From contig JACPSE010000140.1 in assembly GCA_016193465.1 (NCBI GenBank), positions 1 to 49,202 of the forward strand: a stretch of DNA of 49,202 bases, given 5' to 3'. The notes below the pieces were generated by a model. That model was not told the DNA's origin. It made no database searches and saw only the letters and a program-made list of their open reading frames with translations. A program made the translations under genes and the position numbers. The stretch's first letter is position 1. The number at the start of each line of letters is the position of its first letter. Of this stretch, positions 12,255 through 21,913 are shown in pieces. The DNA comes from Deltaproteobacteria bacterium (GTDB taxonomy: Bacteria > Desulfobacterota > Binatia > UBA9968).

Positions 12255-12342
12255 ATCGTGGCTCGTGCTCGTTTCTCGTGATCGTGAAGAACATAGATTT
12301 CTGCTGTTTTAACGAGCACGACCACGAACACGAATCACGACC
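12252..12342. repeat. Imperfect inverted repeat D built of 6-7-bp units
   Basis: The left arm at 12254-12286 (tcgtggctcgtgctcg type) is complementary over about 33 bases, with scattered mismatches, to the right arm at about 12310-12341 (gagcac, gaccac, gaacac, gaatcac units). The spacer is about 22 bases. It begins at the UbiD stop codon and ends just before the ribosome-binding sequence of the zinc-ribbon gene. Confidence 0.75.
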
Positions 12343-12355
12343 GACAGGAGGAAAA

Positions 12356-12502
12356 ATGGGTCAAGCCGTAGAAATTACTTGCCCGAAGTGCAAGAAGGTC
12401 TTTGTCGCCAATCCCCACATGCTGGGTTCCGGCATGGACTTTCATTGCCCGTTCTGCGATCTCTATTTTCCCGAGAAAGATAGCGTGAAGATCAGGAAGT
12501 AG
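12356..12502 (+). CDS. Small zinc-ribbon protein, possible UbiD accessory subunit
   Basis: 48 residues, starting at the ATG that follows CAGGAGG by four bases; an upstream in-frame start would lie in the inverted repeat. Four cysteines form a zinc ribbon: C9-x2-C12 and C31-x2-C34. It sits between a UbiD decarboxylase and a Mo hydroxylase large subunit on the same strand. Hydroxybenzoate/vanillate decarboxylases of the BsdBCD/VdcBCD type carry a small, cysteine-rich third subunit (BsdD/VdcD) beside the UbiD subunit, so this could be an analogue. That role is inference from position and Cys pattern; no sequence match was computed. A general zinc-ribbon of unknown function is the alternative. 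Confidence 0.7.
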   Translation: MGQAVEITCPKCKKVFVANPHMLGSGMDFHCPFCDLYFPEKDSVKIRK

Positions 12503-12567
12503 GCGGAAGACAGTAGGCAGTAGGGAAAAACCTGCCCGCCTCGCGTCTGTCGCCTCGCCCGGTCGGA
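12500..12567. repeat. Short-period inverted repeat E after the zinc-ribbon gene
   Basis: The 7-bp unit cagtagg is repeated at 12511-12524. The flanking ggcggaagacagtaggcag (from 12503) is roughly complementary to the stretch around 12532-12562, spaced by a few A residues. The TAG stop of the zinc-ribbon gene begins the tract. The second arm is weaker than in other copies. Confidence 0.5.
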
Positions 12568-12577
12568 ACAACCAGAG

Positions 12578-14884
12578 ATGAAACAAAGGCACGCTTTTAC
12601 CATTGCCGGCACCGCCGCCCCGCGCCTGGACGGAGTGGAGAAGGTGACCGGAAAGGCCCGCTATACCGGGGACCTCGATCTCCCCGGGATGGGCTTTGCC
12701 AAGATCCTTAGAAGTTCCTTGCCCCATGCCAGGCTTATCCGCATCGATGCCCGCAAGGCTGAGGCCCTGCCGGGTGTCTATACGGTGCTCACGCGCGCTG
12801 ACATCACCGGCCTCAACTACCTGTATGGCGCCACTTACAAAGATCAATCGATCGTCGCCGTTGACAAGGTAAGGTACGCGGGGGATCCCGTCGCCGCCGT
12901 GCTGGCGGTGGACGAGGCCACAGCGGAAGAGGCTCTCACGCTCATCGATGTCGAATACGAAGATCTTCCTGCCGTGACCAATATCGAGGAAGCTATCGCG
13001 CCGGGCGCCCCTTTGGTCCACGAAGGGGAATCCTTCAAGGCCGAGCTTCGAGGCTCGCAGTATGGCGCGCCGGAGAAATTCAAGGGGACCAACGTCTGTT
13101 ACTATTTTGGCTACAGCCGCGGAGACACGGAAGAGGGATTTAAAAACGCGGATTACGTCTACGAAGACACCTTCCGCTTTCCGAAGGTCCAACATTGCTC
13201 GTTGGAGCCCCATGTGACCCTGGCCAGCTTTGAAGAAGGCCGGTTGGCGGTTTGGACCGCGTGCCAGGATCCTTTTACCCTGCGCGACCATCTCGCCGGC
13301 ATTTTCAATCTTCCCATGAGCCGGGTGCGCGTCATTGTTCCTTATGTGGGCGGCGCCTATGGGGGAAAACTCTATGTTAAGGGGGAGCCGATCGCCGCCG
13401 CCCTCTCCTGGAAGGCGCGCCGTCCGGTCAAGCTGGTGCTCCATGTCAGCGAGAGTTTCAAGACGATCACCCGCCACCCGGCGCGTGTCCGCATAAAAAC
13501 CGGAGTGACCCGCGCCGGCCGCCTGGTAGCCAGGGAATGCGAAGTGCACATGGACACAGGCGCTTACGCCGATGCCGGACCAAGAGTGACACAGAAGGCC
13601 GGCTATCGCGCCCTGGGTCCGTACCGTATCCCGTGCACAAAAGTCGCCGCCTACAGCGTCTATACCAACACGGTTCCCGCGGGGGCGTTCCGCGGCTTTG
13701 GCTCGGTTCAGGTGACCTGGGCCTGCGAATCTCAGATGGATTTGATCGCTGAAAGGCTGGGGATGGATGCGCTGGAATTGCGCCTGAAAAATCTCCTTAA
13801 AAAGGGCGAGAGCTATAGCCGCGGGGACACACCGGTAGACTGTGACCTCAAGGAAGGGTTGCTCAAGGTAGCCGAGGCGCTGGAGTGGGGGCGGAAGCCT
13901 TCCAGTCCATACACCGGCAAAGGATTGAGCTGCTGTATCAAAGATGCCGGAGGCACGTTCAAAATCGCCGGGGCGATGGTGAAGATGTCCTCGGATGGCA
14001 GCGTGGGGCTGCTGACCGGTACGGTCGAGCTCGGTCAGGGATCGTGTACGGCGCTGAGTCAGGTGGTGGCAGAGGAGCTGGCGATGGATCTGGATCAAAT
14101 CTCGGTGGCCCAGCTCGATACGGATGTCACCCCTTACGACGTCTCCACCAGCGCGAGCAGTTCTATGACGGTCATGGGACTTGCGGTGCAGAGAGCAGCG
14201 CAAGATCTCAAGAAACAGCTTCTGCGCGCCGCCGCCAAGGTCATGGGCAAGAAAGCGGCCCAGCTAGCGCTTAAAAGCGGCAAAGTGTGCAGTCGGGGTG
14301 GCCGGGGCGTACCTTACGGCAACGTCATTGCTGACTATTTCGGAAGCAAGGCAGGAGAAATCATCGGCAGAGGGACGTATCGGGACGTAATAAGCAAAAA
14401 GGCCGTGCTGGGATCGCCCACGACCTTTTGGGAGGTAGGCTGGGGAGGCGCCGAGGTTCAAGTGGACCCGGAAACGGGTGCGATTCAGGTTCTGAAATAT
14501 ATCTCGGCAGCGGACGTCGGGAAGGCGATCAATCCGGTCCAGTGTGAGGGGCAGGACGAAGGCGCCGTTTTTTTTGGTCTCGGCCATACGCTCTACGAAG
14601 AGATGATTTATGAAGATGGCCAGCTACTCAATCCCAATCTGGTGGATTATCGGGTCCCTGCCTTTTGCCACTTGCCCAGGGAGTTTCATTCGATTCTGAT
14701 AGAAAACGGCAATGGCCCGGGGCCCTTCGGGGCCAAAGGGATGGGTGAAGGAGGTCTTCTTCCAGTCGCTTCGGCTATCGCCAACGCCGTTTCCAATGCT
14801 GTCGGTGTTCGCCTCTACGATCTGCCGCTTACTCCTGTGAAAGTTTGGCGCGCCCTGCAGGCGAAAGGTCCTGCCCGGAAGTAA
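12578..14884 (+). CDS. Molybdenum hydroxylase large subunit (xanthine dehydrogenase/CoxL family), stand-alone
   Basis: 768 residues, full length. The N-terminal a/b-hammerhead domain (residues 10-120) is followed by the molybdenum-cofactor-binding domains. Visible motifs are VGGAYGGK (about residue 262), GAFRGFGS (the substrate-channel Phe-Arg motif) and GAKGMGEGG near the end, whose E724 corresponds to the catalytic glutamate. These enzymes hydroxylate aromatic heterocycles or aldehydes, or reduce 4-hydroxybenzoyl-CoA, with electrons passing to FeS and FAD subunits. No FeS or FAD gene adjoins this copy; the nearest are at 21.9-23.3 kb. It may share those subunits. Position between two UbiD genes suggests action on the same pathway. 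Substrate unknown. Confidence 0.88.
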   Translation: MKQRHAFTIAGTAAPRLDGVEKVTGKARYTGDLDLPGMGFAKILRSSLPHARLIRIDARKAEALPGVYTVLTRADITGLNYLYGATYKDQSIVAVDKVRYAGDPVAAVLAVDEATAEEALTLIDVEYEDLPAVTNIEEAIAPGAPLVHEGESFKAELRGSQYGAPEKFKGTNVCYYFGYSRGDTEEGFKNADYVYEDTFRFPKVQHCSLEPHVTLASFEEGRLAVWTACQDPFTLRDHLAGIFNLPMSRVRVIVPYVGGAYGGKLYVKGEPIAAALSWKARRPVKLVLHVSESFKTITRHPARVRIKTGVTRAGRLVARECEVHMDTGAYADAGPRVTQKAGYRALGPYRIPCTKVAAYSVYTNTVPAGAFRGFGSVQVTWACESQMDLIAERLGMDALELRLKNLLKKGESYSRGDTPVDCDLKEGLLKVAEALEWGRKPSSPYTGKGLSCCIKDAGGTFKIAGAMVKMSSDGSVGLLTGTVELGQGSCTALSQVVAEELAMDLDQISVAQLDTDVTPYDVSTSASSSMTVMGLAVQRAAQDLKKQLLRAAAKVMGKKAAQLALKSGKVCSRGGRGVPYGNVIADYFGSKAGEIIGRGTYRDVISKKAVLGSPTTFWEVGWGGAEVQVDPETGAIQVLKYISAADVGKAINPVQCEGQDEGAVFFGLGHTLYEEMIYEDGQLLNPNLVDYRVPAFCHLPREFHSILIENGNGPGPFGAKGMGEGGLLPVASAIANAVSNAVGVRLYDLPLTPVKVWRALQAKGPARK

Positions 14885-19636: not shown

Positions 19637-21913
19637 ATGTCTGACTACTACGCGGTAGGAAAGTCTGTGTCCCGTGTTGATGCCACGGCCAAAGTGACTG
19701 GTGAAGCTGTTTACACGGCTGACGTTATGCTGCCCGGAATGCTTTACGGCATGGCCAAGCGCTCCCCCTATGCGCATGCCCGCATCGTGCGCATTGACAG
19801 CCGCAAGGCTGAAGCTCTCCCCGGTGTCAGGGCGGTGATCACAGCCGAGAACGTGCCCGGTGTCTTGCTGGGGTTAAAGCTCCAGGATGTGCCAATTTTA
19901 GCCCGCAACGAGGCGCGGTTTGCCGGGGAGAAAGTGGCCGCGGTCGCCGCCGTCGACGAAGAGACCGCGCGTGAGGCGATAAACCTGATCGAGGTGGAGT
20001 ATGAGGAGCTGCCGGCCATTACGGATGTGGAAGAGGCGATGAAGGACGGCGCGCCCCTTGTCCACGACAACCTTCACACCTATGCGGGACTTCCGGCTCC
20101 TGTGAAGCACACAAACATTTTTTTTCACGAGACATTCTCTAAGGGAGACACGGCTCAGGGTTTTGCCCAGGCCGATCTGGTTTTCGAGCAAACCTTCACA
20201 ACTCCGATCGTGCACCAGGGATACATGGAGCCGCACGCGGCGCTGGTTGATATCGCCCCTGACGGCGGCGTGACCGTGTGGAGCTCCGTCAAGGTGCCGT
20301 TTCGGGTGCGCGCCATTATGGCGGAAATTATCGGCCTGCCGATTACCCGGGTGAGGGTGATCCCCGGCTTCGTGGGCGGGGATTTCGGCGGCAAGGGCAT
20401 GGTCCTTGACGAGCCCCTGTGCTACTACCTGGCGCGCAAATCTGGGCGTCCGGTTAAAATGGTCATGTCCCGGCAGGAGGAGTTTCTGGCTGCCAGTCCA
20501 CGGCACGCCAGCATCATTCGGCTCAAAGCGGGTGTCAGCAAGTCGGCAGAGCTTGTGGCATGGGAAGCGAATGCCGTCTTCGACTCGGGAGCCTACGCAG
20601 GTTATAAACCCGGTGTGGGGCTGGGGGGCACAAAGAAGCTGGCCGGCGCTTACCGCGTTCCCCACGTGCGCATTGACGGCTACTACGTCTACACCCACAC
20701 GGTTCCCTGCGGGCACTGCCGCGCACCGGGGGATCCTCAGGCCTCTTTTGCGGTGGAATCTTTCATAGACATGATTGCGTCCCGTCTAAAGCTTGATCCC
20801 TTCTGCTTTCGCTGGTTAAACGCGCTGGAAGAGGGGGATCTCTCGCCGACTGGAGAGCCCTGGAAAGCCATTAACCTGAAAGAGACCATGACCGCCGCCG
20901 TCAACGCGAGCGGCTGGGGCAAGCCCAAGCCGCGCAAGCACTACGGTATCGGGATTGCCTGCGCGGAGAGACCTACAGGCACAGGGGAATCGAGTGCCGT
21001 GGTCATCGTGAGCGGAGACGGTAGCGTAAATCTAATCACGGGATCATCAGATCCTGGAACAGGCTCCCGGACGATCCTCTGTCAGATCGTGGCCGAGGCG
21101 CTAAAGGTTCCCATGGACCGGATCACCATCAATCTGGTGGACACGGATTCGGCTCCCTATGATCAGGGTGCCGGAGGGGGGAGAACGACTTTTGTTGCCG
21201 GGCTCTCCGCATACCGCGCCGCCCTCGAGGTGAGAAAGCAGCTCGTTGCGAGCGCCGCCAAGCTTTTGAAATGTCCGCAGGAGCAGGCGCAGGATCTCAT
21301 CGAAGCCAGAGATGGTTTCCTATTCGTAAAATCGGATCCTAATAAAAAAATCTCCTACAGTCAGGCCGTGCGCGCGGCCGGCAAGTCTCAGCTTATCGGC
21401 GAGGAGACCTTTTCCTGCAAGGAGATGGATGACACCTGCTTTGCCACCCACATTGCCGAGGTGCAAGTGGACGCGGAGAGGGGAGTCGTTGAGGTGCTGC
21501 GCATCACCGCCGCCCACGACATCGGTTTTGCCATCAACCCGGCGGCGGCCGAGGGGCAGATCGAAGGCGGAATCGTGCAAGGGGTCGGCTTTGCGCTCTT
21601 GGAGGAGATGCAGCGTGCTGAGGGGAAGGTGGCAAACCCCACTCTGACCGATTACAAGCTGTGCACTTCCCTGGACGCGCCCGAAATTGTCACGCTGCTG
21701 GTCGAGGGGGCGCCCGGGGCCGGTCCCTTCCATGCGAAGGCGATCGGCGAGATCCCCACCTGCCCCATCGCTCCTGCGGTAGCCAACGCTATCTTCGACG
21801 CGGTTGGGGTGCGGATTACCGAGCTGCCGATCACCGGGGAAAAGATCGTGAAGGCCTTGAAAGAATCAGGCGCCTCTCGGCCGGTACCCGTGGCCGTGGG
21901 AAAGGAGCGCTGA
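19637..21913 (+). CDS. Molybdenum hydroxylase large subunit (xanthine dehydrogenase/CoxL family)
   Basis: 758 residues. First gene of a complete three-subunit operon in the order large, FAD, FeS. Motifs are GFVGGDFGGK (about residue 250), CRAPGDPQ in place of the usual FRGxG loop, and AKAIGEIP with E705 as the catalytic glutamate. The loop difference from the stand-alone copy at 12.6 kb (GAFRGFG) points to a different substrate. Such enzymes hydroxylate heterocycles, aldehydes or CO, or reductively dehydroxylate hydroxybenzoyl-CoA; the CoxL AYRCSFR motif is absent, so CO is excluded. The FAD subunit starts one base after the stop. Confidence 0.9.
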   Translation: MSDYYAVGKSVSRVDATAKVTGEAVYTADVMLPGMLYGMAKRSPYAHARIVRIDSRKAEALPGVRAVITAENVPGVLLGLKLQDVPILARNEARFAGEKVAAVAAVDEETAREAINLIEVEYEELPAITDVEEAMKDGAPLVHDNLHTYAGLPAPVKHTNIFFHETFSKGDTAQGFAQADLVFEQTFTTPIVHQGYMEPHAALVDIAPDGGVTVWSSVKVPFRVRAIMAEIIGLPITRVRVIPGFVGGDFGGKGMVLDEPLCYYLARKSGRPVKMVMSRQEEFLAASPRHASIIRLKAGVSKSAELVAWEANAVFDSGAYAGYKPGVGLGGTKKLAGAYRVPHVRIDGYYVYTHTVPCGHCRAPGDPQASFAVESFIDMIASRLKLDPFCFRWLNALEEGDLSPTGEPWKAINLKETMTAAVNASGWGKPKPRKHYGIGIACAERPTGTGESSAVVIVSGDGSVNLITGSSDPGTGSRTILCQIVAEALKVPMDRITINLVDTDSAPYDQGAGGGRTTFVAGLSAYRAALEVRKQLVASAAKLLKCPQEQAQDLIEARDGFLFVKSDPNKKISYSQAVRAAGKSQLIGEETFSCKEMDDTCFATHIAEVQVDAERGVVEVLRITAAHDIGFAINPAAAEGQIEGGIVQGVGFALLEEMQRAEGKVANPTLTDYKLCTSLDAPEIVTLLVEGAPGAGPFHAKAIGEIPTCPIAPAVANAIFDAVGVRITELPITGEKIVKALKESGASRPVPVAVGKER

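Follow-up and report, generated by a model that had tools for sequence, protein, structure and literature searches.

Some UbiD enzymes are hard to isolate in active form, and small putative UbiD accessory genes have been reported in other species (both according to the available part of PMC10865409, the latter citing Lupa 2005). VdcD, BsdD and ShdD (NF041205; PDB 7ae4, 7ae5, 7ae7) constitute subunit D of the non-oxidative hydroxyarylic acid decarboxylases. As far as the accessible text of PMC8379154 describes it, the VdcC hexamer is decorated with VdcD, a zinc ribbon (C3, C6, C28 and C31) in tight complex with VdcC. On its own, VdcC is inactive or nearly so, and the contacts between the two proteins suggest a role of VdcD in holding the loops with the catalytic ERE motif (PMC8379154). 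Activity is reported to fall when VdcD is present in sub-stoichiometric amounts. Two further small UbiD helpers are known from partly available sources, namely the prFMNH2-binding chaperone LpdD, reported as a dimer similar to the proteasome chaperone Pba3/4, whose gene is co-transcribed with the UbiX homologue lpdB (PMC10865409), and the prFMN maturase PhdC/YclD, of which PhdC is a member of the dimeric flavin reductase family (PMC13040415). Among the matches listed from the open-licence literature, there was work on VdcD, LpdD and PhdC and nothing on the ribbon family described below.

The window, that is, the whole stretch of 49,202 nt analysed here, carries a small gene whose product, MGQAVEITCPKCKKVFVANPHMLGSGMDFHCPFCDLYFPEKDSVKIRK, has two CxxC knuckles and lies between a UbiD (UbiD1) and the large subunit of a molybdenum hydroxylase (Table 1). 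The first-pass annotation had described a 48-residue CxxC...CxxC protein in this position, and both the layout and the four cysteines are confirmed. UbiD1 itself scores 162.7 bits against PF01977 (gathering score 23.3) and has the R, E and E triad, which makes it a UbiD on both counts. The gap between UbiD1 and the ribbon gene measures 101 bases; the length of this spacer differs greatly among relatives.

Table 1 Features surrounding the ribbon gene in the window
Feature	Position	Strand	Remarks
UbiD1, proposed catalytic partner, 482 aa	10806..12254	+	Pfam E 8.4e-48; R-E-E triad present
11-nt perfect inverted repeat in the UbiD1-ZnR spacer	12263-12273 / 12311-12321 (12263..12321)		
Shine-Dalgarno AGGAGG	12346..12351	+	4 nt upstream of ZnR ATG
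ZnR, 48-aa predicted zinc ribbon	12356..12502	+	C9/C12/C31/C34; proposed small UbiD subunit
MoL1, molybdenum-hydroxylase large subunit	12578..14884	+	Downstream of ZnR; lineage-specific neighbour

The small frame is a genuine protein gene under purifying selection. Specifically, the median pN/pS between the window gene and 25 relatives is 0.10 (at a mean pS of about 0.79 over all pairs, which is near saturation), and a Shine-Dalgarno-like stretch lies within 20 nt of the start in 25 of 26 orthologues, bearing out the good translation signals that had been ascribed to the frame. The four cysteines are invariant in all 26 rows of alignment A1 and in all 30 rows of alignment A2. Judged by their sequences, two matches were kept out of A1, one of them (L005) presumably a Trm112-like protein and the other (L008) a domain within a bigger protein, and a further match (L055) was set aside as a piece of a bigger protein. 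A2 was restricted to rows with a neighbouring UbiD, which in the case of L161 lies downstream, and L006 was dropped from it. Two other readings of the same bases were discarded: a longer frame with a TTG start (12245, 85 aa) is disfavoured because close relatives start at MGQ, and the big antisense frame at 12335-14203 is taken as spurious.

The ribbon is widespread in the family to which the window belongs, with full-length matches in 21 of 25 genomes (the window's own included), those from the other genomes being 79-96% identical. The own genome furthermore contains divergent copies besides the window gene, and each of these stands behind its own UbiD. A profile search across the phylum returned matches in at least 15 of 395 genomes (E <= 1e-6), and a search of a second phylum, that of an Anaerolineales genome (locus L053) and taken as Chloroflexota, returned them in at least 14 of 400 (E <= 1e-8); both genome counts are lower bounds because only part of the candidates per genome was scored. 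The ribbon was not found in plasmid records, and matches to UbiD1 in 212 plasmid records were all less than 60% identical, reaching at most about 32% in the best 30 of the 212.

Sequence searches in four genome sets gave 78 ribbon matches, 64 of which directly adjoin a UbiD. Specifically, adjacency was found for 5 of 6 matches in the own genome, 26 of 28 in the family, 15 of 22 in the phylum and 18 of 22 in the second phylum, with 63 of the 64 UbiDs upstream of the ribbon and one downstream at 121 nt. Each match was counted once; the tally excludes a Binatia-centred search, which covered the identical phylum and had genomes partly in common with the phylum search, and another set of 19 loci that overlaps the family search. 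The figure for the second phylum comes from a search that used sequence alone, with a profile (A2) that leans towards UbiD-linked proteins because it was built from UbiD-linked rows. The remaining 14 matches can be accounted for. Three stop at a contig edge (L016, L019, L172), one is preceded by a UbiD remnant of 19 C-terminal residues and is hence no true orphan (L006), one is preceded by a truncated UbiD 3' end, as read by eye from the translation (L176), and one has a UbiD 1.2 kb downstream (L187). The seven weakest phylum matches (L144-L149 and L155; E 8e-8 to 1e-6) lie away from UbiD and are apparently other, unrelated zinc domains, which leaves L181, a good match lacking a UbiD within 9 kb, as a true exception. 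Homologues situated mainly away from UbiD genes had been named beforehand as the outcome that would speak against a UbiD subunit, and the distribution is the opposite: the ribbon is tied to UbiD across at least two phyla. The locus of L006 (G000:C69:1084-1304, also L090) appears as a decayed duplicate that consists of the UbiD remnant and a near-copy of its ribbon and stands, by eye, behind an enoyl-CoA hydratase-like frame.

The other neighbour in the window fares differently. The pairing with UbiD stood up, whereas the Mo hydroxylase, beside which the gene had also been placed, is not a general partner, because four Binatia-type loci (L049-L052) and the Anaerolineales locus L053 retain the UbiD-ribbon pair without it. 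A second Mo-hydroxylase large subunit in the window (19637-21913) is followed by both an FAD and a 2Fe-2S subunit, unlike MoL1. Relatives of the window's FAD and 2Fe-2S subunits were looked for near MoL1 in nine loci (L038-L042, L046-L048, L054) and found in none of the nine within the DNA available around them. The last of these loci, on a contig named as Syntrophobacter sp. SbD2 (CAMDBU010000039.1), probably comes from a mislabelled bin and belongs to the window's own family (G012:C39).

The spacing of the two genes is often tight, with a median gap to the upstream UbiD of 22 nt in the own genome, 57 nt in the family, 5.5 nt in the phylum and 16 nt in the second phylum. UbiD stop and ribbon start overlap or are no more than 20 nt apart in 2, 7, 9 and 11 cases in the same order. 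In one genome (G436; L177/L199), UbiD, a linker of about 35 residues and the ribbon share a single open frame. This fusion is a single metagenome case and may contain a separate internal start. The AlphaFold model of the 556-aa fusion (pLDDT 83.0, pTM 0.75) has a pLDDT of about 80 in the ribbon part and below 50 in the linker (467-500), and as such predicts a folded ribbon after a disordered linker.

The ribbon also follows a particular kind of UbiD. Of the 61 UbiD matches in the own genome, five have a ribbon of the new kind behind them and one has a VdcD. UbiD is strongly expanded throughout the 25 family genomes (G000-G024), with 17 to 80 matches per genome. In a tree of 96 UbiDs, 39 of the 40 ZnR-linked rows fall into one group of 43 (bootstrap 84, SH-aLRT 91), to which UbiD1 belongs and which is enclosed in a wider group of 46 rows (98/94); L184 is the sole ZnR-linked UbiD outside, and the five VdcD-linked UbiDs form a separate branch (100/99). 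The rows from other genomes had been picked for having a ribbon, whereas the 57 own-genome rows (UbiDs of more than 400 aa) were unselected, and among these all five ribbon-linked UbiDs are found within the nine group members (chance 3.0e-5). The four other own-genome members of the group (C129:44249, C141, C156 and C235) have no ribbon; hidden ones near these four were looked for and not found. Such gaps are what would favour an accidental or degenerating frame, or a passenger gene with no functional tie to UbiD, an explanation that is contradicted by the low median pN/pS, the conserved start and Shine-Dalgarno sequence and the adjacency in two phyla and that we consider next to impossible. 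Additionally, the pairwise distances of UbiDs and ribbons are correlated over 40 pairs (r = 0.75, with none of 2000 permutations as high), a correlation that shared ancestry alone can yield and to which ancestry contributes; for distant pairs (UbiD identity <45%) it amounts to r = 0.32. Taken together, the adjacency, the fusion and the correlated distances support the proposal of a new small UbiD subunit, with the complex itself as the conjectural part.

Specifically, the 48-aa protein is likely to act as an accessory subunit, a zinc ribbon bound to UbiD1 that holds this prFMN-dependent (de)carboxylase in its active form, much as VdcD does for VdcC. The analogy on which binding and stabilisation are predicated consists of the same knuckles, the same gene position and the presence of R-E-E in UbiD1. 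In such a model, the four cysteines would bind zinc and the ribbon would form a stable complex with UbiD, probably with one ribbon per UbiD in the hexamer. It would contact the UbiD loops that bear the catalytic Arg-Glu-Glu and thereby stabilise the active form, so that UbiD1 would require it for activity. A short tail with a recurring [DE]SPxI stretch could take the place of the long proline-rich tail of VdcD.

Does the ribbon stay on the enzyme, or does it prepare the enzyme and then leave? A maturation factor of the latter type, loading or oxidising prFMN or inserting a divalent metal, would have precedents in LpdD and PhdC, which are small UbiD helpers, as the ribbon is proposed to be (available parts of PMC10865409 and PMC13040415). 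With 61 UbiD matches and one UbiX-sized flavoprotein in the own genome, cofactor supply is common to many UbiDs, so that clade-specific helpers would make sense. On the other side, a dedicated subunit accounts better for the one-to-one pairing, for the fusion and for the fact that UbiD paralogues have separate ribbons, and LpdD and PhdC are not described as zinc ribbons in the parts of these sources that are available; a maturation factor is an unlikely explanation. The UbiX-sized flavoprotein corresponds to an open frame of 219 aa, and a longer one of 412 aa is also present.

The two knuckles themselves allow other readings. Two CxxC knuckles can hold iron as well as zinc, and the knuckles of rubredoxins carry glycines, which are missing from the window ribbon; its nearest models, furthermore, are zinc-ribbon or zinc-finger families, none above its cut-off. 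A rubredoxin-like carrier, whose four cysteines would hold iron and accept electrons from prFMNH2 during O2-free oxidative maturation, is accordingly a very improbable candidate, even if O2-free oxidative maturation of prFMN is given as an open point in the available part of PMC10865409. DNA or RNA binding is common among small zinc ribbons, and the weak structural neighbours of the window ribbon point in that direction. The AlphaFold model of the window ribbon (48 residues, four short strands, pLDDT 77, pTM 0.51) gave nothing at E <= 0.001 with Foldseek, and its best VIA-align hit came from the small-subunit preribosome of yeast, again a ribbon (Z 4.7, rmsd 2.7 over 45 residues), with weak neighbours that are mostly ribosomal S27e-type and also include LysW and ZitP. 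A small nucleic-acid-binding regulator that accompanies catabolic operons would be compatible with these neighbours, but the ribbon tracks one UbiD group across operons and phyla and not one type of operon, and in one case it is fused to UbiD; we regard such a regulator as hardly plausible.

The triads of the linked UbiDs raise a more far-reaching version of the preferred subunit reading. The triad is not R-E-E in 11 of 40 ZnR-linked UbiDs, versus 6 of 51 unlinked UbiDs of the own genome, in counts that ignore kinship. Eight of the 40 have Lys in place of the triad Arg together with V, A, C or L in place of the first Glu and form a branch (L143, L151, L157, L169, L171, L173, L174 and L182); the others have T-H-D (C132:7103 and L029) or R-N-D (L195). 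It is conceivable, at rather long odds, that the ribbons are a second, separately evolved zinc-ribbon class without which a large UbiD subfamily cannot work, and that in the branches with altered triads the ribbon contributes or restores a portion of the active site, for chemistry beyond that known from UbiDs.

The subunit reading has potential implications for experiments on these enzymes. If an entire UbiD group found in uncultured Deltaproteobacteria, Binatia and Chloroflexota depends on a small ribbon (about 50-75 residues), which family models do not name, then expression of the UbiD on its own will fail or mislead. Knowing which of the 61 own-genome UbiDs need a second subunit would, in turn, make their functions testable, and the occurrence of VdcD-type and ZnR-type pairs within one genome offers a natural comparison. 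The own VdcD gene stands directly behind a VdcC-type UbiD and about 2.4 kb downstream of a ribbon of the new kind, and both types of pair adjoin in one cluster (G000:C129:24500-28600; L087).

How, then, does the ribbon relate to the known families? For the window ribbon, no model reached its cut-off among the NCBIfam matches or the best 25 of 31 Pfam matches. YnfU (NF038384) is the best NCBIfam resemblance at 25.5 bits (cut-off 36), which does not make the ribbon a member; DUF7836 scores 24.7 bits (cut-off 26.7) and the MJ0042-type zinc finger (TIGR02098) 15.0 bits (cut-off 20.9), and the names of the YnfU and MJ0042-type families state no link to UbiD. The likeness to BsdD/VdcD on which the original proposal was modelled holds for gene position beside UbiD and fails for sequence. 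The VdcD model NF041205 (cut-off 30 bits) matches a single gene of the own genome, C129:28387, at 54.3 bits; it is absent from the NCBIfam matches of the window ribbon and from the first 25 of the 40 families matched by A2 members, and the profile-profile comparison of A2 with VdcD gave a probability of 2.2%. By sequence, the window ribbon is therefore not a member of VdcD. Searching the sequences of the PDB with the A2 profile returned zinc fingers, with no VdcD chain among the best 60 of 106, and VdcD was not listed in the fold search, an absence that is no proof either way.

The enzymes differ along with their ribbons. At 216.9 bits, UbiD1 falls short of the VdcC model cut-off of 650, and the partner UbiDs sit elsewhere in the tree than the VdcC branch. 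Of the VdcC salt-bridge residues, aligned by eye, R133 has a counterpart in UbiD1, whereas E31 and D173 have none. W35, R36 and E39 are invariant in all six VdcD rows (alignment A4), and the window ribbon has F38, P39 and D42 at those offsets, again by eye. The knuckles are separated by 18 residues in the window ribbon and 21 in VdcD, and the last cysteine is followed by 14 residues in the former and a long proline-rich tail in the latter, with longer C-terminal tails in some relatives of the ribbon. Common to both are the small size, the two CxxC knuckles, the gene directly behind UbiD and the zinc ribbon, for which zinc is a prediction in the present case, and a distant common ancestry of the two is possible. 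Overall, the results suggest an uncharted small subunit for one UbiD branch, a new ribbon family that accompanies a UbiD group other than that of VdcC.
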